NCBI RefSeq assembly: GCF_013155395.1
Contig: NZ_JABJWC010000014.1
Coordinates: 1 to 64,000, forward strand
Reading direction: 5' to 3'
Source: Komagataeibacter melomenusus
GTDB lineage: Bacteria; Pseudomonadota; Alphaproteobacteria; Acetobacterales; Acetobacteraceae
Length of the DNA: 64,000 bases
Program-made: the position numbers and the translations under genes
Shown: piece by piece, positions 2,479-12,311 of the stretch
Numbering within the stretch: position 1 is the first letter of the stretch
Layout of the letters: every line of letters starts with the position of its first letter
Notes under the pieces: generated by a model
What the model was told of the DNA's origin: nothing
The model's database searches: none
What the model saw: only the letters and a program-made list of their open reading frames with translations

Positions 2479-3441
2479 TCACATACTGATTCCGAGATCG
2501 CGCTTTCGGTCGTGTCGCCAGTCGACTCCCCCGTCATCACGGGCGACCCCATCCACATAGCGGTCGTGCTGCTTTTCCAGCGACGGTGCCCAAGGCACAA
2601 GCTGGAAGCCCATGCCGTTGTCGATCATGGCGAACCGGCCCGAGGACAGGTTGAGGCGTTTGACATACTGGCCGGTGACGAAATTGCCGGGAATGCTGCG
2701 CTCATAGGTCAGCCCGCTTTCTTTTGCGAGTTTCGCGCCAACCTGATCGAGTTCCTGCTGCCGCAATGTCGCCAGGAGGTTGCGCTGATAGCGCGCTGAT
2801 CCGTCGGCATGGAATGACGCCAACCCGCGCTCCGCGAGGTGACGGGTGCGCTCCTGCATGGCCTGCCGCACCTCGGCCCCGAAGCCGGTGCGGGTGAGGT
2901 CCATGGGCTGACGCTCCACCAGCCGGTGATCGAGCCACGTCGCGCCCGGTGCTTTCACCTGGGCGGCAAGGTCCGCCATCTCCGGGGCGTCCTCGGGCGA
3001 GACGATGAAGCGGAAATGATGCCGATCGTCTTTGCAGCGCACGGCAAAATCCTGTGCATCCGCGTCCTGACCACCCGGCCCGAACAGATGCGCTTTTTCG
3101 CCGTCGCGGGTGACGCCATCGCGGCGCAGATAGGCGAGATGGTCGGCCAGAGATCCGGGCCGGTTATCACGCATGGTCTGTCGCACCACGCGGGCCTTGA
3201 CGGTGACGCGGCGATGGGCGTCGAACAGGCGGCTTCTGCCAAACCGGGAATGACCACGCCCGAAGGTCGATGGGCCAGAGCGCGGACTGCCGCCTTTCCC
3301 CTTTCCGGGGTTGCCGCTACTGCCTCCGCCCGCGCGTCGGGAGGCATGGAGCACCTGCGCCAGAAAGCTTCGGGGGCGGGCACCACCTCCCTTGCTCCGA
3401 ATGCGGCCCGGACGGACCCGGAAATCCTCATCGCGGACCAT
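2479..3441 (-). pseudogene. DUF3363-type relaxase with large in-frame internal deletion
   Basis: Start ATG 3441 gives a 320-residue protein opening MVRDEDFRVRPGRIRS, the typical start of VirD2/DUF3363 relaxases, which as I remember are about 600-700 residues. The N-terminal part runs through HLAYLRRDGV and DRHHFRFIVSPEDAPEMADL (about residue 158). It then jumps directly to AAQVKAPGATWLDHRL, which belongs to the C-terminal third. The missing block should carry the WVAVDHWNTDNPHIHV histidine motif needed for metal binding, so nicking activity is very unlikely. The frame is open throughout, so a shortened protein could still be made. An upstream in-frame start at 3522 adds 27 residues without family resemblance. 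Confidence 0.75.
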
Positions 3442-3685
3442 CAGAACCTCACTGTGCAGAAGAACCCCGCAGGAAAGCAGGGCAAAACCTGAAACCCTGC
3501 ACACGACCGACCCGCCATGCACACAAGAAGACGAAGCGCGACCGCGCTTCGTCGCCCGACGTGGCAGGCCGTTTTATCTTGCCTTCTCTTTCCTTCATGT
3601 TTCCCGATCCCCTCAACCCCGGACGCATACCCGAAGCGCTCCCGATGGGATGACAGGTTTTCCCGTTCATGCCGTAAATCCCTCG

Positions 3686-4363
3686 TCACGGCGCGCTCCT
3701 TTGCGAAATGGGGATGAACAGGCCATGAGATGGGGTCTTTGATCGCAGCACCTGAACGAAAATGGGCATCACCTCGGGGGCACGCTGAGCCGCTTCTCGG
3801 GATGTAAACGCACCCACAAAAATCGGACATCCGGACGGTGTTTGTTCGTGCGGTTGATCGACAAAACCCACGCCGGCAATTGTACCGCCAACCGACACTC
3901 CATGCAGCAGTCGGACGACTCTCGCGACGTATTTCCGGGTCTCATCAGGCAGCATTTTTCCTGCTGTGAGAAACTGCTCATACCGTCCGGGACCGGCATT
4001 GTAGGCGGCGAGAAAACCCGCATCGCCGTAGCGGTCATGCAGCCATCGAAGATACGCCGCGCCCGCCGTAATATTGTCGTGCGGGTCATAGGGATCAGCC
4101 CCAAGGTTGAGCGCGTGACGCAGTCCCCGCCATGTGTCCGGCATGATCTGCATGAGGCCCATCGCCCCCTTGGGTGATACCGCTGAGGCATCACCCTGAC
4201 TTTCGGCCTGCATCACGGCAGCAATCCATGCGGAAGGAATCTGCATCCGTGTAGCGGCCTCGGTGACGTAGGTCTCGAACGGCTTGGCGCTGGCCGTCTG
4301 CATAGGCATCGCAAACCCGGCGCAGACCACCAGCAGACCAGGCACTGTTTTAACGCGGATCAT
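3686..4363 (-). CDS. Lytic transglycosylase of a conjugation module (VirB1/TrbN-like)
   Basis: A 225-residue secreted muramidase-like protein that would open peptidoglycan for a conjugation channel. Residues 1-26 form a signal peptide ending ASA. The SLT domain has catalytic Glu54 (MQAESQGD), GLMQIMP at 69-75 and AYNAGPG near 120-126. The C-terminal part after about 160 contains GCPIFVGAFTSREAAQ, which is not part of the SLT fold and is of unknown use. The start codon overlaps the stop of the DUF736 gene (ATGA), so the two are translationally coupled. It probably belongs to the same operon as the TraF-like peptidase. The channel it would serve is absent from the window. Confidence 0.85.
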   Translation of the reverse strand: MIRVKTVPGLLVVCAGFAMPMQTASAKPFETYVTEAATRMQIPSAWIAAVMQAESQGDASAVSPKGAMGLMQIMPDTWRGLRHALNLGADPYDPHDNITAGAAYLRWLHDRYGDAGFLAAYNAGPGRYEQFLTAGKMLPDETRKYVARVVRLLHGVSVGGTIAGVGFVDQPHEQTPSGCPIFVGAFTSREAAQRAPEVMPIFVQVLRSKTPSHGLFIPISQRSAP

Positions 4364-4689
4364 GACGGCGTTCGGGGACGGTTCCAGACCAGATGGAACG
4401 TGTCGTGTTCGTCCCGGTCCGGCAGTAGCCGGGCACGCAGGGGGCGGGCGAAAAGCGGGTCATCAATCATCACCGCCAGCCACAGCCCTATGCGTTCCCC
4501 CTGACGCGCCCAGGCGCAGCCCACCTGTATGGCGTCATCTTCCAGACCGCGCAGGACGCGATAATCCGGGGTGTTCTCTGTGGTGGGGTCAGCGATGGGG
4601 AGGATCGACAGATCGTCCTCCATCAGAAAGGTGGTGATCTGGCCGAAAAAGCCGTTTGTGGTGCGCGTGAACGTGCCAAGACGGATCAT
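4360..4689 (-). CDS. DUF736 family protein
   Basis: A 109-residue protein opening MIRLGTFTRTTNGFFGQI, the conserved start of DUF736 proteins. These small single-domain proteins are found almost only in alphaproteobacterial conjugative plasmids and islands. The middle carries DYRVLRG and IQVGCAWARQGERIG, matching the family's usual YRV and GAAW segments. Its function is not known. It sits between the TraF-type peptidase gene (67-base gap upstream) and the lytic transglycosylase, whose start overlaps its stop. The gene order (peptidase, DUF736, transglycosylase, relaxase) is typical of these islands. Confidence 0.82.
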   Translation of the reverse strand: MIRLGTFTRTTNGFFGQITTFLMEDDLSILPIADPTTENTPDYRVLRGLEDDAIQVGCAWARQGERIGLWLAVMIDDPLFARPLRARLLPDRDEHDTFHLVWNRPRTPS

Positions 4690-4756
4690 GATACGTCTCT
4701 CCTGGTCTGCGGATTGCAGGGCAAAGAATTGAAAACTGGGGGAGGGCTACGCCGAG

Positions 4757-5326
4757 TTACTGAAGTGGAGGCGACAGCAGCACCGGATGAGGTCTTTCGT
4801 CGTGGCCCGGTGCAATCCGTCCGGTCGTGACCCAGATCGGGATAGCGCGGCCTATCACCGTGCTGGCGGGAAGCGGTCCGAAATAGCGCCCGTCCAGACT
4901 GCGTGGTTCTGCCGGGTTCATGACGAAAATCTCGCCGCGCATGAGGCGATGACAGCCACGCCAGACGGGTAACGGACGGCCCCGATGATCAGTAGTCAGC
5001 GCGTCGCTGACGGGGCTGCCATCAATCGTGATACTGCCATTTGCTCGGCATACGGTCTGTCCTGGTAAGGCCGCGACGGGCTTGAGCAAGGGCACACCGA
5101 ATGGAAGATAGCCGCGCTGTGACAGCAGCAGGGCCAGCCGGTCGGGCAGACGCACGGCGGCAAGATCTCCGACATGCAGAACACTGTCGGCACGGAGCTG
5201 ATACAGTCCCACCGGGACGCTGGCCGTGCTGTTCCACAGCAGCCGGGGCGTCACACACACGGCGGCGGACGTGCCCACTACCAGCACGACGAAATAGGTG
5301 CCGAAGAACCAGGCGCGCCTGGTCAT
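4757..5326 (-). CDS. TraF-type S26 signal peptidase of a conjugation module
   Basis: A 189-residue membrane peptidase of the S26 family. In conjugative systems TraF processes or cyclises the pilin TrbC. There is one N-terminal membrane segment (about residues 7-25). The catalytic Ser36 lies in NSTASVPVGLY and Lys82 in LLKPVAALPGQ, the expected Ser-Lys dyad, and GEIFVMN supplies the later conserved box. ATG 5326 is chosen because it overlaps the stop of the DUF2840 gene as ATGA; an in-frame start at 5353 would add nine residues. No pilin gene is visible here, so the enzyme may be orphaned. Confidence 0.85.
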   Translation of the reverse strand: MTRRAWFFGTYFVVLVVGTSAAVCVTPRLLWNSTASVPVGLYQLRADSVLHVGDLAAVRLPDRLALLLSQRGYLPFGVPLLKPVAALPGQTVCRANGSITIDGSPVSDALTTDHRGRPLPVWRGCHRLMRGEIFVMNPAEPRSLDGRYFGPLPASTVIGRAIPIWVTTGRIAPGHDERPHPVLLSPPLQ

Positions 5327-5799
5327 GACACCAGCCTCGCACGCTTCAGCCATGCCGCGTGCAGGGTATGCGTGTAGCGCCGTGGTTCCTGCCCGGCGAT
5401 GATACGGTTATGGACATGCCGCCAGTGATCGGGGGAGACGGCGCAGGGATCGAAGCCGAAGCGCTCAATCTGGTCGATCACCTCCAGCACATGCTTTACC
5501 TGCGGCCAGCCCGACACGTCGAGCAGCAGGTCGCCGCCAGGCCAGACAAAGGGCACGGTCTGAAAGGCGGTGCCCCGTTCTATGGTGCGCACGATGGCGA
5601 GGCAGGACACGACCGTGCCGTAATCATTGGCGGCCCAGCGGATAAAGCCGAACGTGCTGCCGGGTGCGAAACTTAGCAGGCGACGGCGTTTGTCGAGCAC
5701 GCGGTCGGAGATCGGCCTGCCGAACCTGATCCAGTGTTCGATGCGCTTTTCGATGAAGGTCAGTTCGACTGTAGTCAGGTTGGAATTATCCGCTCTCAT
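5323..5799 (-). CDS. DUF2840 family protein
   Basis: A 158-residue protein of unknown function. LTFIEKRIEHWIRFG, the FIRWAANDYGT stretch and the WPGGDLLLDVSGWPQVKHVL segment match DUF2840 as I recall it, a family found beside traF in alphaproteobacterial conjugative elements. It overlaps its neighbours by ATGA on both sides, so this is a tight operon with the AlpA-like regulator upstream and the S26 peptidase downstream. In related islands parA and repA-like genes usually lie between the helix-turn-helix gene and DUF2840. They are absent here. Confidence 0.78.
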   Translation of the reverse strand: MRADNSNLTTVELTFIEKRIEHWIRFGRPISDRVLDKRRRLLSFAPGSTFGFIRWAANDYGTVVSCLAIVRTIERGTAFQTVPFVWPGGDLLLDVSGWPQVKHVLEVIDQIERFGFDPCAVSPDHWRHVHNRIIAGQEPRRYTHTLHAAWLKRARLVS

Positions 5800-6137
5800 G
5801 GTCTGTTCCTCCGTGAGGGCATCTCACGCAGGGCGGCGGCATAGTTGTCGTCCGAGGTGTTTTGGCAGCGATGGCGCTGAAGCCATGCTTCCACGTCCTC
5901 GCGGAGATAGAGGACGCGCGAGCCAACCTTTAGAAACGGTGGACCGCCGCCGGTGCAGCGGTATTTCTCCAGCGTGCGAATAGAGACCCCGATCAGTTCG
6001 GCGGCTTCACCCCCGCGCAGATAGGGGCGCAGGATACGGGACGGGGATGTAAGCGGGCGTGCTGGTACAGAGACCTCGGACGTCGGTTGTGTCGGTGGCA
6101 CGGATACGCCCATTTTGGGTTTCGTGGCATCGGTCAT
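5796..6137 (-). CDS. AlpA/excisionase-like helix-turn-helix protein
   Basis: A 113-residue protein. Residues about 40-90 form a MerR-like winged helix of the HTH_17 type: LRGGEAAELIGVSIRTLEKYRCTG, then PPFLKVGSRVLYLREDVEAWLQ. Such proteins act as excisionases or regulators of mobile elements. The proline/threonine-rich first 35 residues look disordered. It leads the ATGA-coupled run DUF2840, S26 peptidase and so may control it. Inferred role: island excision or transfer control. Confidence 0.8.
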   Translation of the reverse strand: MTDATKPKMGVSVPPTQPTSEVSVPARPLTSPSRILRPYLRGGEAAELIGVSIRTLEKYRCTGGGPPFLKVGSRVLYLREDVEAWLQRHRCQNTSDDNYAAALREMPSRRNRP

Positions 6138-6221
6138 GAAAACCTCCCTGTCGATGCGGCGTGCTTCGGGGGGGAAGCTGAGCCGGTAAGGGGAGGCTGA
6201 CGGGAAAGAAGCGGTCTGGGA

Positions 6222-6253
6222 GTGGAGGAAATGATGTGCGCGAATTCCTCCAC
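6222..6253. promoter_or_regulatory. 9-bp perfect inverted repeat upstream of the AlpA-like gene
   Basis: GTGGAGGAA at 6222-6230 and TTCCTCCAC at 6245-6253 form a perfect inverted repeat with a 14-base centre. It lies between the DUF2285 stop (6300) and the start of the AlpA-like gene (6137), both read leftward. It could be an operator for the AlpA-like protein or an RNA hairpin. There is no U-run after it on the minus strand, which argues against a simple terminator. Confidence 0.4.
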
Positions 6254-6299
6254 CCCAAAAGGGTAATGGAGCGCAAGGCGAGGTCGGAAATGAGGGTGG

Positions 6300-6848
6300 T
6301 CAGAGTCCGTCCAGCAGTGCGAGATATCCGCCATGAACAAGTGCGCTGCCCTCGTCGCGCAAGGTGCGGGCCATGGTACGCAAGGCAGAATCGCGCCAGA
6401 TGTCGTCGGGCATGGTCCGGGCGTCCGGGTCGAGTAGTTTCGCCGCAATGTCGCGCAGGCTGGCACCCGTCGCATCCAGATCGAAGGCATGCAGGCGCAG
6501 GGCAAGCTGCCGCCAGCGTGTCGGGGTAATTCGGCAGGGATGGCGTGAGGGCAGGCGATAGCCCAGCACATGGGCGCAGAAACGGGCAGCCTCATCACTG
6601 CGTCGCCGATAGGAAGGATCAACAGGGATATGGACTGCCGGGCAGGCGGCGGCCGCGCCATGAAGGGAAAGACTGAACGTGGCCGAGGGCGTCGCTACCA
6701 CGATGGCGCGGCCCAGTTGGTCGGCCTGATCGAACAAGGGATGACCCAGTGAGCGCCAGGAGGGAAGGGCAGGCGGAGTGAAGCTGTCAACAGCGTGTGT
6801 CAGGCTGATGACGCTGGAGGTGACGCCCGGTCGCCAGATCACGGGCAC
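6300..6848 (-). CDS. DUF2285 domain protein, second half of a split gene
   Basis: This 182-residue reading frame (GTG at 6848) opens MPVIWRPGVTSSVISL and ends in a DUF2285 domain. It includes PVDPSYRRRSDEAARFCAHVLG and the C-terminal RDSALRTMARTLRDEGSALVHGGYLALLDG. In related islands this follows a DUF6499 segment in one protein. The bases just upstream also encode PHSPEIPVTR in the same frame, so the GTG is probably not a true start and the frame is the continuation of the gene at 6871. Function unknown, suspected DNA-binding or replication control. Confidence 0.7.
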   Translation of the reverse strand: MPVIWRPGVTSSVISLTHAVDSFTPPALPSWRSLGHPLFDQADQLGRAIVVATPSATFSLSLHGAAAACPAVHIPVDPSYRRRSDEAARFCAHVLGYRLPSRHPCRITPTRWRQLALRLHAFDLDATGASLRDIAAKLLDPDARTMPDDIWRDSALRTMARTLRDEGSALVHGGYLALLDGL

Positions 6849-6870
6849 GCGGGTGACGGGTATTTCCGGG

Positions 6871-7080
6871 CTATGTGGGAAAACGTATCCTCCAGCGCTG
6901 GCAGAAGGTATCCCATTCCGCGTTGGGATTGGATGCGCCTGCTGAGATCAATCGCGCTGTCTCGGCATGATCTTTGCGATAGGTCGTCCAGCGCCGCATG
7001 AAGGCCCCGGCGAAACCGGCTTCATCCAGGCGTTTGAGGGCGGCACGGTCGGTCTCTGACTGCCAGACGTCGAGCGGCAT
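6871..7080 (-). CDS. DUF6499 (regulator-like) domain, first half of a split gene
   Basis: A 69-residue frame opening MPLDVWQSETDRAALKRLD and ending FCQRWRIRFPT, then TAG. This is the DUF6499 domain that commonly precedes DUF2285. One extra base in the TTTTCCC run near 6877-6883 would explain why the frame stops. A +1 shift there restores the continuous reading RFPHSPEIPVTRVPVIWRPG into the next gene. It is therefore either a frameshifted gene, a sequencing error at a homopolymer, or a case of programmed +1 frameshifting. Confidence 0.65.
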   Translation of the reverse strand: MPLDVWQSETDRAALKRLDEAGFAGAFMRRWTTYRKDHAETARLISAGASNPNAEWDTFCQRWRIRFPT

Positions 7081-7283: not shown

Positions 7284-7305
7284 AATACTCCGTGGTTAAA
7301 TACTC
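7284..7305. promoter_or_regulatory. Direct repeat AATACTC x2 upstream of the XRE regulator
   Basis: AATACTC occurs at 7284-7290 and again at 7299-7305, a 15-base period, 24 bases before the ATG of the XRE gene. A tandem site this close to the start fits an autoregulatory operator of a small controller-type regulator. A TATCCT that could act as a -10 box lies almost on the start codon, so the mRNA may have little or no leader. Confidence 0.35.
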
Positions 7306-7328
7306 TGCAAGAGGCTGCCCTATCCTGT

Positions 7329-7538
7329 ATGAACATACGGGAGATTCTGGCAGCAAACCTTAAACGATACCGGCGTGAACGCGGGGTGTCGCAGGAAGAG
7401 CTTGCCCATCTTGCTGAGATCGACCGGACCTACATCAGTTCGCTGGAGCGGTGCCAGTATGCGGCTTCCATTGAGGTCGTGGACCGGCTGGCGAAAGCGT
7501 TAGGGGTTGAGGCATATGATCTGTTAAGGTTAGTGTAA
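7329..7538 (+). CDS. XRE-family helix-turn-helix regulator
   Basis: A 69-residue single-domain Cro/C1-type repressor. NLKRYRRERGVSQEELAHLAEI is followed by the recognition helix around DRTYISSLERCQ and ends VVDRLAKALGVEAYDLL. The size and form resemble controller proteins of restriction-modification and defence loci. It converges on the AT-rich three-gene operon (stop at 7538, operon end at 7598). It also lies next to the DUF6499/DUF2285 genes, where related islands usually carry such a regulator. Whether it regulates the defence-like operon or the transfer genes is not shown. No good ribosome-binding site is visible; AGAGG at 7310 is rather far away. Confidence 0.85.
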   Translation: MNIREILAANLKRYRRERGVSQEELAHLAEIDRTYISSLERCQYAASIEVVDRLAKALGVEAYDLLRLV

Positions 7539-7597
7539 TATAGAATGATTATCTTACCTATACTATTTCATTCGAGAAAATAAAAAATCATACGCAC

Positions 7598-8731
7598 CTA
7601 TTTTCTTTCTTTACATATAGTTTGGTATTTCTCATCTATAATTTTAGCCATACATTCATCTAAAAATAGGCGAATATTTTTCTTTGATGTTTCATTTACT
7701 TTGTTTTCATATGTTATGTTTGATAATAAAAATGTTAATTCTGCATTTAAGTAACTATGATCAGAACGTCCGGTCGCGTTAAAGAAAAAACTTACCTTGA
7801 ATTTTCCTGAATTGGCAGCCTTTTGATATTTAAATTGCAAATCAATTTTTTGGATATGATAATATTTATAATATTGCTCATCTGATATTAGAAAAACATC
7901 ATTCATTTTTTCACCATCAATTTTCATTTTTTTGACGGCATCTTTCATCCATGAAATTTGTGGGTCGTTAGGCAAAGGCGGAGCATTTTTGTCAACATTA
8001 ATTTCTATATTATCGACATCTCCGACTGAAATGTTGTTTGGTAATCCTGCTGTTAGACGTTTAAAAAATCTAATGCGTTCCTCATTGTCAAAAGAATTAA
8101 ATCGTATTTGATCAGGATTTTCAGATGTAACAATATTCGAATGTTTGAGTAGCTTTGATATGTTCTTTATTATATTATTATTTATATTATTTGTTTCTTT
8201 TGAAGAGTGATTTGCTGAGAATTCAAGTTTTATAGATCCGTCTTTCTTCGAGATATTTACGGTTCCACAAAAAACAAGCTCTCTTTCTAGCCAATTTTTA
8301 CTATAATCTGTGCGAGTTATCTTGTAGGATATGCTCGCCTCATTTTCATTTTCGATACATAGATTGGGAGAGGAATTAAAGGAAACATTATCTATTCCGG
8401 AAAGGAGCCATGACGAATCGTCAAATAATCCATTTCTTAATGGAGAGATCCAGTCAGAGTCTTTTGAATTCAGTTCAAGGTTAGATATTTTTATCTTCGA
8501 CTGAGATTCTCTATCTATACTTGATTCTATTAACGTTGAGAAATTATCCGGAGTCAGAAGCGTAGAAGATAAAATGGGAACGGTATTACATTTGTCATTT
8601 CTTCCAATGTAGATGCCTTTTTCTTTTAAGATACAGTCTATTTCTCCATAAGATATATGGTCACTATTGAGTAATACACGCAAGTCAGATCCAAATAAAA
8701 TGATAGAATCTGTATCTATAGGTGATTTCAT
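7598..8731 (-). CDS. GapS4b-like protein, third gene of the putative defence operon
   Basis: A 377-residue cytosolic protein without membrane segments or signal peptide. It opens with a helical region containing SDLRVLLNSDHISYGEIDCILKEKGI, looking like a small winged-helix domain. VPILSSTLLTPDNFSTLIES comes next, then a long alpha/beta part with SFDNEERIRFFKRLTAG, PPLPNDPQISWM and IKIDGEKMNDVFLIS-type segments (about residues 215-290). From memory this resembles the family named GapS4b, partner of GapS4a in the GAPS4 anti-phage system; I could not verify this by search. It starts one base after the stop of the nuclease-like gene (TGA A ATG), so the two are co-translated. Very AT-rich compared with the surrounding island, which suggests separate acquisition. 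Confidence 0.55.
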   Translation of the reverse strand: MKSPIDTDSIILFGSDLRVLLNSDHISYGEIDCILKEKGIYIGRNDKCNTVPILSSTLLTPDNFSTLIESSIDRESQSKIKISNLELNSKDSDWISPLRNGLFDDSSWLLSGIDNVSFNSSPNLCIENENEASISYKITRTDYSKNWLERELVFCGTVNISKKDGSIKLEFSANHSSKETNNINNNIIKNISKLLKHSNIVTSENPDQIRFNSFDNEERIRFFKRLTAGLPNNISVGDVDNIEINVDKNAPPLPNDPQISWMKDAVKKMKIDGEKMNDVFLISDEQYYKYYHIQKIDLQFKYQKAANSGKFKVSFFFNATGRSDHSYLNAELTFLLSNITYENKVNETSKKNIRLFLDECMAKIIDEKYQTICKERK

Positions 8732-8732
8732 T

Positions 8733-9677
8733 TCACTCTCCTGTTTCTAGAAGGCTAAGAATTGATTTTTTGAAAGAAAATATAGTTATTATTTCTTCTC
8801 GTTCTGAGAAATGCATTCGAGCAAGTTGCGCGGCTTGTTCATCTTTTGTTGGGTTGTAATCAGGCATACCAATGTATATTCTTTTTATGATACCAGCGGA
8901 AAATTTGAGTGCATAGGATAAAATTCTTTTATAAGAATTCTGGCTAAAAGCTTGATTGGCGTAAATGACTAATTCGACAGATGTAGAATCTTCTGATCGA
9001 ATAAGGCATGGAACTATATCGGATGCAATTAGTTCAAGGGGCAGAGAATTCCCTGATCGCTTCTCTTTGTCGTAAATGTTGGTTCCAATTTGAGGGTAAA
9101 AGAAATCAGAGGTTTTCTTCGAAAATCGAATAGAAATATCATCTATAATTTTTATTAAAAATGCTGCCCTCGAATTATCTATGAGATACACGGGGAAAAT
9201 ACAATCTTCTTCTAGACGAACATTTGAAAGCTGCGGCTTTATGTCACATTCTAGGTTTGTGTCTTCATTGTGAAGCCATATCAAAAGACCGGAATGAGTT
9301 TTTTTGTTTCTGGTTCCATATGCATCGCATATATCTTGTATTTCTTTGCTATGTTTAGCACATGCAATAGTTTCTTGTAGTTCTGTATAATATTCTTTGA
9401 ATTTTCTTTTTAGAGTTGCCGGGCTTGGAGGAGCTGAAAGTGAATTTTTTACAGAGACATGGACTATATCTGTTCTATCGTCATGAAATGGGTTGTGATA
9501 GATAAAAATAATATCTCCACCATGTGTCTTGCGTGGATTTCCTGATTCATTTACATGGGATTTATTATTGCACGCAATCGTCACGTTCTGGAGAAAAGTT
9601 TTCCATCCGATTAATTCCAAAAGTTTCTTGGAAATTTCTTCTCCGATTTCTCCAGATTTTTTTGATTTCTCACCCAT
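8733..9677 (-). CDS. PD-(D/E)XK nuclease-like protein, GapS4a-like
   Basis: A 314-residue protein opening MGEKSKKSGEIGEEISKKLLELIGW, an amphipathic first helix with the conserved glutamate typical of restriction-endonuclease folds. HGGDIIF at about 52-58 supplies the acidic metal ligand (Asp55). HVSVKNS, with Lys77, supplies the catalytic lysine of a PD-(D/E)XK site, the usual acidic residue two before the lysine being Ser here. The rest shows FPVYLID and a C-terminal alpha/beta region. From memory this matches GapS4a of the two-gene GAPS4 defence system. ATG 9677 overlaps the upstream stop by one base (TGATG); GTG 9680 is an alternative start. Confidence 0.6.
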   Translation of the reverse strand: MGEKSKKSGEIGEEISKKLLELIGWKTFLQNVTIACNNKSHVNESGNPRKTHGGDIIFIYHNPFHDDRTDIVHVSVKNSLSAPPSPATLKRKFKEYYTELQETIACAKHSKEIQDICDAYGTRNKKTHSGLLIWLHNEDTNLECDIKPQLSNVRLEEDCIFPVYLIDNSRAAFLIKIIDDISIRFSKKTSDFFYPQIGTNIYDKEKRSGNSLPLELIASDIVPCLIRSEDSTSVELVIYANQAFSQNSYKRILSYALKFSAGIIKRIYIGMPDYNPTKDEQAAQLARMHFSEREEIITIFSFKKSILSLLETGE

Positions 9678-10702
9678 CACTGATCTTTCTTTATGTTAAC
9701 ATCGATTATCGCTCGATAACCATTTTCATGTGGTTCAATTTTTACTTTTGAGACCATAAGGGAGGGATCTGTAATGACAAAAGATGCTCCGGATGAAACC
9801 TTTATTTTGCTTGTAATATTCTTTGTTTGTTTGACAAAATCAGTGGAGTAAAAAATACTTTCATTGCTTAGATTAATTCCGGAACTTATATTAGCTCCTG
9901 CTATTGATTTAGATATAATGTCATCATTGACAAATTCAGATAAAATTTCTTTTAATTCACTGAAGTTTAGGATCTTTCTAGATTCTGTTTTCGTTTTTAA
10001 CTTCGTAATTAATTTTGCTTCTTTATCTGCATTATCTATTTTTGACATAACACCTTTCAATACAGACCCGCAGGCTTTGGCGTTTGATTGGGATGTTTGT
10101 CTGAGGGATACCTTTAAAAATGAATCCAGCCAATATTTTATTTTTTGTCCTAGATTATCAATAGAAAACACCCCCGCGTTTTCTGAAATAATCAAACTGC
10201 CTTTTTGTATCTGGCTTAATGATATCCCACTTCTTTCAATAAGATTAAAAGAATTTGTTGATTTCTGTATATCTAGAAAATAATCTTTTTTTTCTATTTT
10301 AATTATAGCTAAAGCATCATGTATTCTTTCTTTATATAATATATTAGAGAAAAGTAAAAACAATACATTTCCTTTTGAAATATTTGGGTGATTCGATGTG
10401 CTGTAGAGATATTTAGAAATATTTTGTGTTTGTTTGATAAATGATTCATGGTTAGAAAATATTCTACTTGATAAAGTAAATATGGCATTCAAATTTAAAT
10501 CAGACTCATGGAAAAAATCGTATATTTTTTCTTGTTTAGAAAATGGCTTCAAGTAATTTTTTAATAAAATATCTTCAAGATCACTGTCGAAAGATGTTTC
10601 ATATTTCGAAAGTTCAATGCCTTCTTCTCTGGTTTTGTTTCCCACTTGATGGATTGCTATTTTTTTTAGGCGCGATGAACTTATGTCTATTATTTCACTC
10701 AT
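9677..10702 (-). CDS. 37-kDa nucleoid-associated protein (NA37/YejK family), first gene of the defence-like operon
   Basis: A 341-residue protein opening EIIDISSSRLKKIAIHQVGNK, then EEGIELSKYE and ILLKNYLKPF. This is the conserved start of NA37 proteins (the NdpA/YejK family, known as nucleoid-associated). FHESDLNLNAIF, FIKQTQNISKYLYSTSNHPNI and the C-terminal ending VKIEPHENGYRAIIDVNI also fit. Chromosomal YejK is usually a single gene; here it begins an operon with two putative GAPS4 genes and overlaps the second (TGATG). A role in binding or marking DNA for the system is an inference. TTTTGGAAA precedes the ATG as a weak ribosome-binding site. AT-rich, like the rest of the operon. Confidence 0.75.
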   Translation of the reverse strand: MSEIIDISSSRLKKIAIHQVGNKTREEGIELSKYETSFDSDLEDILLKNYLKPFSKQEKIYDFFHESDLNLNAIFTLSSRIFSNHESFIKQTQNISKYLYSTSNHPNISKGNVLFLLFSNILYKERIHDALAIIKIEKKDYFLDIQKSTNSFNLIERSGISLSQIQKGSLIISENAGVFSIDNLGQKIKYWLDSFLKVSLRQTSQSNAKACGSVLKGVMSKIDNADKEAKLITKLKTKTESRKILNFSELKEILSEFVNDDIISKSIAGANISSGINLSNESIFYSTDFVKQTKNITSKIKVSSGASFVITDPSLMVSKVKIEPHENGYRAIIDVNIKKDQ

Positions 10703-10913
10703 AATTATTTTTCCAAAAAATGTATGGAGTATTAATTAAATCAATCATTTTGTACCTTTGGATTCCATGAGGCCTAGTAGGTAGCATCAAGCTACGTTTA
10801 TGCGTTAAAATTAGTCTCTCAGCTTTCTGAAGTAAAGTTGCTTTCTGTTGGTGCGATTCAACGCGATGATTGAGTGCATATTCCTTTTCAGGGGAGGGGG
10901 GCTGTTAGAGAGC

Positions 10914-12062
10914 TTATCTTGTACCTAAAGCGTGAGCGATCGCATCGGCCACGTCATTTGCAGTTTTCCTAATTGGATCAGTTTTTAAGTGGGCATACCG
11001 TGCGGTGGTCTGTACCTGTGTATGACCTAGCAACCGCCCGATCATGGTCAGGTCTGCGCCGAGCTGAAGTGCATCTGATGCGAAGGAATGGCGCAGGTCA
11101 TGGATTCGTAGTGTGTCCAGCCCAGCCCGCGCGCGTATCCGTCGCCAAGGCTTCTGGATGTCGGTCAGATACTGGCCCTCCACCTTCCCGATGATGACAT
11201 GGGGATTACCCTCGATCCGGGGCATGTCCGACAGCACGTCCAGCGTCGCCTTGCCGATGGGTACGACCTTGGCCCCGGTCTTGGAATCCGGCAGTCGCAG
11301 GACACCGGCCCGAAAATCCACATACTCCCATTTCAGGGTCTGGATTTCCCCCAGACGGCACCCGGTTAGCAGCAGTAGCCGAATGCAGGTCGCGGCTTCC
11401 GGCTCACCGTCCGCTTCTCGGAGCACCTTGCCCAGGCGGGCCAGTTCGTCGGGAGTCAGGTAACGCTCCCGCTTCACCTCCTTGTAGCGTTTGACCTTCC
11501 AGCATGGATTGATCCCGTCCGACCGTACGCCCCAGGTGTCGGCTAGGGTGAACATGATCGACAGAACGCCCAGCACCCGGTTGGCCTGGTAGGGCGTCGT
11601 TTTCAATCCTTGGTGCAGTTCGACGACATCGGCGCGGGTCACGTCGATGACCTTGAGTGTGCCCAGCTTCGGTGTGATGAACAGGTCCACGCAGCGGCGA
11701 TACTCATACTGTGTCGAGGGCTTGCAATGCGAGGCGACGTGTTCGTCGAGGAACCGCCTGCCGAACTCTTTCATGGTCGCGGCGGCGCGCAGCCGGTCGC
11801 GTTGCGCGCCGGGATCGCTGCCCAGCCGGACATCGGACAGGTGCTTCATGGCCTCGGTGCGGGCCTGATCCGGAGTGATCGGGCCATGCGGGCCGATATT
11901 GACCCGCCGGATGCGTCCGCCTGCGCGGAACTGGGCCAGGTAGATTTTCCGCCCCGAGGGATGGACCCTCAGACCAAAGCCTCGAAGCTCGTCGTCCCAG
12001 AGGAAATACTCCTTGCCGGTTCTGGCGGCGGCTTCGACGGAACGTTTCGTGATCTTGACCAT
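10914..12062 (-). CDS. Tyrosine recombinase, island integrase
   Basis: A 382-residue phage-type integrase. The DUF4102-like N-terminal arm-binding domain (ITKRSVEAAARTGKEYFLWD, GFGLRVHPSGRKIYLAQFR) is followed by a core-binding SAM-like domain (about 95-175) and the catalytic domain. Catalytic residues are visible: Arg in LTGCRLGEI, His-Leu-Arg-His in RIHDLRHSF, His in LLGHTQVQTT and Tyr in ARYAHLKTD. ATG 12062 is preferred because GGGAGGG lies just upstream; an in-frame start at 12119 adds 19 residues. The gene ends next to the defence-like operon and starts 178 bases from the tRNA-fMet fragment that marks the island end, the usual position for the integrase. Confidence 0.93.
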   Translation of the reverse strand: MVKITKRSVEAAARTGKEYFLWDDELRGFGLRVHPSGRKIYLAQFRAGGRIRRVNIGPHGPITPDQARTEAMKHLSDVRLGSDPGAQRDRLRAAATMKEFGRRFLDEHVASHCKPSTQYEYRRCVDLFITPKLGTLKVIDVTRADVVELHQGLKTTPYQANRVLGVLSIMFTLADTWGVRSDGINPCWKVKRYKEVKRERYLTPDELARLGKVLREADGEPEAATCIRLLLLTGCRLGEIQTLKWEYVDFRAGVLRLPDSKTGAKVVPIGKATLDVLSDMPRIEGNPHVIIGKVEGQYLTDIQKPWRRIRARAGLDTLRIHDLRHSFASDALQLGADLTMIGRLLGHTQVQTTARYAHLKTDPIRKTANDVADAIAHALGTR

Positions 12063-12239
12063 GGGGAACCCTCCCTTGGTTGGAATCACTGGAATCAAAT
12101 AGGAATCATTTGGGGGCAAAATCAGGCGATTCCAGTCGTAAGAGAGTGTAGCATGCTCCGAGTAAAAACGTAAATAAAACCACTACTTATCGTAGAAAAA
12201 TTGGCCGCATGCAGAAAAAGTGTAAGTATTCGACTGGAA

Positions 12240-12284
12240 CTCATAACCTGAAGGCCGCAGGTTCAAATCCTGCCCCCGCAACCA
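12240..12284 (+). repeat. 3' fragment of an initiator tRNA-fMet gene; probable attachment site
   Basis: The sequence from the anticodon loop CTCATAA (CAT at 12242-12244) runs through the 3' anticodon strand, a GCAGG/CCTGC T-stem with TTCAAAT loop, and CCCCGCA plus ACCA at 12281-12284. It agrees closely with the 3' half of bacterial initiator tRNA. The bases before 12240 do not pair with the 3' anticodon strand and give no D-arm or 5' acceptor strand, so only the 3' half is present. This is the usual mark left by integration into a tRNA 3' end, and the integrase gene is next to it. Confidence 0.8.
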
Positions 12285-12311
12285 AGCATTATCCAATATC
12301 ATCAGCATGTT

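Follow-up and report, generated by a model that had tools for sequence, protein, structure and literature searches.

On the minus strand of a 64,000-nucleotide stretch of the Komagataeibacter melomenusus genome (NCBI RefSeq assembly GCF_013155395.1, contig NZ_JABJWC010000014.1, positions 1 to 64,000; hereafter the window), an operon encodes an NA37/YejK-type protein (P0001) together with GapS4a (P0002) and GapS4b (P0003), and we consider it probable that these three genes are the cargo of a mobile island and form a GAPS4-type anti-phage system of three components, in which GapS4a is the effector and the NA37-type protein a working third subunit. GAPS4 is described as a two-gene anti-phage system. 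The GapS4a/GapS4b pair is thus already known, and what is new is an NA37 gene that is encoded with the pair and that recurs in distant bacteria: the trio is genuine and recurrent, and NA37 is repeatedly a member of the locus.

Profile comparison placed both partner proteins in the GapS4 families, as P0002 scored 340.3 bits against NF047933 (GapS4a; cut-off 270, profile positions 1-302 of 302) and P0003 scored 380.4 bits against NF047934 (GapS4b; cut-off 300, positions 1-355 of 355). The initial annotation, which had called genes 2 and 3 GapS4-like, is therefore borne out by scores above the curated cut-offs. The GGD...SVK site that it had read in gene 2 is also real, since all 12 aligned GapS4a sequences share E14, H53-G54, D56, S76 and K78 (numbered as in P0002) without exception, and E14, D56 and K78 constitute the candidate active site. 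These E...(H)GxD...SxK residues lie on the alpha-beta-beta-beta-alpha-beta order typical of PD-(D/E)XK nucleases, an order read from the model of a fused GapS4ab relative (locus L021; H2-22, E29-35, E51-61, E68-79, H85-105, E121-132, where H is helix and E is strand) and not from P0002's own model. A PHROG family of unknown function, phrog_7059, matches GapS4a (6.3e-13), and a tblastn search of phage records with GapS4a gave no match.

The three same-strand open reading frames and their tight coupling are present as first described. At the gene 1/gene 2 junction (CAGTGATGGGT) stop and start overlap in TGATG, with both GTG and the ATG codon after it being possible starts of gene 2, and at the gene 2/gene 3 junction (GAGTGAAATGAAA) a single base separates the stop from the ATG of the adjacent, co-directional partner. 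Because a translationally coupled NA37-type gene is present in addition to the two genes of plain GAPS4, we file the locus as a GAPS4 variant and not as plain GAPS4. The operon is also AT-rich, as had been noted, with a guanine-cytosine (GC) content of 31.6% at 7598-10702 versus 64.0% in the window outside 7301-10900.

For gene 1, the initial annotation had claimed clear NA37/YejK signatures, of which the kinship stood, via relatives and structure, and the profile match did not: P0001 gave no Pfam match to PF04245 (NA37) up to an E-value of 1, and a PF04245 search of its own genome returned zero matches. The N-terminal 55-58% of P0001 aligns with annotated nucleoid-associated proteins (tblastn), and the full-length protein is 46.5% identical over 333 amino acids (aa) and 46.7% identical over 338 aa to the GapS4-linked homologues of loci L015 and L016, respectively, which themselves pass PF04245 (74 and 79.6 bits; cut-off 24.6). 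In addition, an AlphaFold2 (AF2) model of P0001 (predicted local distance difference test, pLDDT, 85) matches YejK (9be2). P0001 thus has the YejK fold and full-length homology, and we call it NA37-type since a direct PF04245 match is absent; from its family, we infer that it binds the nucleoid. A tree of NA37 proteins separates the GapS4-linked NA37s, including P0001, from the gammaproteobacterial YejK rows (100/100, with a long-branch warning), placing P0001 on the side with NA37s of Firmicutes, Bacteroidota and phages, and does not distinguish single from repeated recruitment. Polaribacter and Tenacibaculum phages encode NA37 (L009:6007-7056 and L010:4983-6011; PF04245, 126-130 bits), and these were the two phage NA37s covered by the PF04245 scan, both of which pass. 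The PHROG family phrog_1113 (function unknown) weakly matches P0001 (3.6e-4).

Recurrence of the trio was surveyed with GapS4a as the sole query, so as to avoid selecting for NA37; the scanning relies on conserved GapS4a motifs and hence under-samples distant relatives. Besides the window we found 24 GapS4a loci: 10 from a genome-contig collection, 2 on plasmids, 6 on virus contigs and 6 from class samples, the latter comprising 5 new loci among 395 genomes of Chryseobacterium's class (a sixth was L021 again) and 1 new locus among 369 genomes of Luteibacter's class (the other was L015 again). The count excludes a spurious hit (L003), a distant archaeal locus (L081) and three E. coli genomes that match L011 DNA exactly, and the 24 are not all independent because L011 and L012 gave the same matches and the L017 and L018 loci are near-identical. 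NA37 adjoins GapS4ab in 12 of the 24: upstream of the pair in L015, L016 and L019, downstream in L017, L018, L020, L057, L058 and L059, downstream of a fused 710-aa GapS4ab in L021 and L022, and downstream of an 895-aa fusion in L060. The other twelve (L006, L007, L011, L012, L013, L014, L023, L024, L061, L064, L079 and L080) carry no adjoining NA37, where an assembly gap interrupts L061, and where L013, L024, L064 and L080 end near a contig edge on one side, so that a linked NA37 is possible in these five. Among Bacteroidota, placed by record titles and class sample, NA37 is present in nine of ten loci, the tenth being the broken L061, and the single clostridial locus also has it. Other genomes, from three phyla by record titles, thus share the three-gene set, and together with the family matches of the pair this upholds the initial annotation on both points by which it was to stand or fall. 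Among the trios found, those of Atopomonas and Luteibacter are nearest to the window's. Where the surroundings are GC-rich, the trio has a lower GC content than its flanks (39.3% versus 63.1% and 40.4% versus 59.5%, besides the values given above), which fits a trio that travels as a unit.

The near-identical trios of Capnocytophaga felis (L017) and Segatella baroniae (L018) are preceded by a similar 400-aa gene, recombinase-like by eye, and point to recent transfer of one element. Beside the L058 trio lie two genes (L058:1469-5466) that, by eye, we take to resemble an OLD-type ATPase and a UvrD-type helicase, a Gabija-like pair. On a plasmid of Halobacterium sp. DL1, a distant GapS4a-like gene (2.1e-14) is part of a three-gene set (L081:4307-7273) whose first (233 aa) and third (433 aa) products gave no NA37 or GapS4b profile match; this set is possibly an archaeal analogue.

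Natural fusions of GapS4a to GapS4b imply that both work as one unit. The fused GapS4ab of L021 scores 231 and 212 bits, under both curated cut-offs, and in L060 (L060:4594-7281, minus strand) the 895-aa fusion, followed by NA37, joins an added N-terminal endonuclease-type domain to a GapS4a part and a GapS4b part, the latter at 129.6 bits (cut-off 300); because they fall below the cut-offs we treat both as GAPS4 relatives and not as strict members. The first 200 residues of the L060 protein match the PADLOC 'Effector, Endonuclease' model (1.7e-18), and in its GapS4a part other residues take the place of D in HGxD and of K in SxK. One nuclease has seemingly been swapped for another with GapS4b and NA37 retained, which argues that GapS4a is the effector and the rest a sensing and targeting chassis.

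The surroundings of the operon support the annotated cargo position on a mobile island (Table 1). The trio is flanked by an XRE-type helix-turn-helix (HTH) gene, convergent with the operon and separated from the end of gapS4b by 59 bases, and by a tyrosine integrase, as had been noted. Farther out, a module that we read as that of a conjugative element encodes DUF3363, SLT transglycosylase, DUF736, S26 signal peptidase, DUF2840 and HTH_17 domains as well as a RovC-type DNA-binding and a regulator-like domain. Past the integrase, the tRNA-Met 3' end is copied with no complete tRNA at that position, the length of the copy having been set by comparison with six other exact copies; its 40-base core has 8 matches in the genome (7 exact, including the window's own, and 1 with 2 mismatches), at four of which a complete tRNA-Met is present. 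These features support the trio being cargo of a mobile island at tRNA-Met. As no relatives of gene 1 were found in 99 other genomes searched, and none of gapS4a in 298 other genomes sampled from the same order, the trio is rare and probably recent cargo.

Table 1. Features of the trio and of the mobile island in the window.
Feature	Position	Strand	Length or support
NA37/YejK-type protein P0001, gene 1 of operon	10702..9677	minus	341 aa
gapS4a, predicted PD-(D/E)XK nuclease subunit P0002, gene 2	9680..8733	minus	315 aa; NF047933
gapS4b, partner subunit P0003, gene 3	8731..7598	minus	377 aa; NF047934
XRE-type HTH regulator	7329..7538	plus	PF01381, 8.7e-14
Tyrosine recombinase / phage-type integrase of island	10914..12119	minus	PF00589, 4.4e-25; PF13356
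Attachment-site copy, 45-48 base pairs identical to tRNA-Met(CAT) 3' end	12240..12287	plus	genome matches
Mobile-element gene module	2479..7080	minus	Pfam matches

In the mechanism that we propose, GapS4a would act as the effector, its motif and fold order being those of a PD-(D/E)XK DNA nuclease and its activity predicted from them, and would form one unit with GapS4b, which may also contact DNA according to a weak structural lead. NA37 would be a working third subunit and not a mere neighbour, as its recurrence, permuted order and tight coupling suggest; its most likely role is to hold the complex on DNA or guide it there, and to make it responsive to some property of phage DNA (for example ends, replication forks or altered topology). 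The nuclease would then act in infected cells only, with NA37 helping to tell infected from normal DNA, and cleavage would halt phage growth or kill the cell. Where the system has no NA37 of its own, as in two-gene GAPS4, chromosomal YejK of the host may fill that role in trans.

Several other explanations, not mutually exclusive, must be weighed against this mechanism. It is quite possible, with a chance somewhat short of even, that two-gene GAPS4 is complete and self-standing and that NA37 is an optional gain in some lineages that broadens or tightens sensing, as two-gene loci are carried by Enterobacterales plasmids and genomes, by 3 of 5,426 E. coli genomes and by virus contigs. However, NA37 is present in all ten unbroken loci that we placed outside the Proteobacteria (L017-L022, L057-L060), and in a GapS4a plus GapS4b tree of 20 rows (12 with NA37 and 8 labelled two-gene, the latter including the one-side-cut L013, L064 and L080; L011, L012, L024, L060 and L061 were left out) the with-NA37 rows sit on several deep branches. 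A single branch separates the two-gene rows from the rest (100/99; 100% of 200 bootstrap trees), in line with the three-component reading and under a long-branch warning with L014 and L064 among those flagged; because the tree is unrooted it fits gain and loss of NA37 equally, a point in favour of the self-standing pair. Host genomes weigh against it: both complete two-gene hosts checked (G755 and G1201, the latter with less than 1 kilobase readable upstream of the locus), and G1520, where a contig end truncates the GapS4a locus, carry an unlinked NA37 gene (PF04245). This is the pattern expected of a borrowed YejK, and it is too little to prove dependence. Each of the 17 GapS4a-bearing host genomes checked has between zero and two NA37 genes, and yet NA37 adjoins the pair in 12 of the 24 loci, which speaks for its being a third subunit. 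A family member is present in 16 of the 17 (the window's own by custom profile, not PF04245), and none was found in G1102, the genome of the broken L061; the base rates are 4 of 124 genomes in the sample of Luteibacter's class (including G747 and G1201) and 65 of 129 in Chryseobacterium's class. That NA37 is the ancestral core of a three-part GAPS4, from which the two-gene branch dropped its own copy and came to depend on host yejK for protection, with phage resistance wired to a nucleoid protein, is a tentative and rather unlikely extension, whose host-YejK point draws on the two complete two-gene genomes.

NA37 might instead be a self-protection or restraint subunit that covers the DNA of host or island, or keeps GapS4ab inactive until phage disturbance frees the nuclease, in a guard or antitoxin logic. 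Its place as the first gene of the window operon, translationally coupled to gapS4a, would suit this role, as would the 23 phage records, from three host genera, with NA37-family genes, yet NA37 is the last gene in the Bacteroidota loci, an unusual position for an antitoxin, and two-gene loci exist without a linked NA37, so we consider restraint improbable. It is less probable still that NA37 belongs to the island as a regulator of transfer or expression of the mobile element and stands outside the defence system: GapS4ab recurs beside NA37 in differing surroundings and in both gene orders, although a protein of related name, NdpA2, is said to control transfer of an integrative and conjugative element in P. 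aeruginosa (PMC8565334). Least convincing is that the trio serves the island as a toxin-like or addiction module and plays no part against phages; an XRE regulator does adjoin the trio, and we know of no phage assay of a GapS4ab plus NA37 trio, but both partner families are named antiphage GapS4a and GapS4b by NCBI.

If the three-component system is real, the known GAPS4 pair may not be the whole machine: the nuclease pair would gain an identifiable DNA-side partner, a nucleoid protein family that is widespread but obscure in role would be tied to immunity, and a host component may contribute unnoticed when defence is assayed in E. coli K-12. Compared with known systems, the window locus shares with GAPS4 (NF047933 plus NF047934) both families, their a-b order and their tight spacing, and differs by the coupled NA37 gene in front of the pair, which two-gene loci such as L006, L007, L014, L023 and L079 do not have adjoining. 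Relative to NA37/YejK (NdpA, PF04245), P0001 lies beyond the reach of the Pfam model and is encoded together with a nuclease pair. Independently, DefensePredictor (PMC13092281) reported a newly validated E. coli anti-phage transcription unit with a YejK nucleoid-associated domain, a feature that it shares with the window trio; the term 'GAPS' is absent from the main text.
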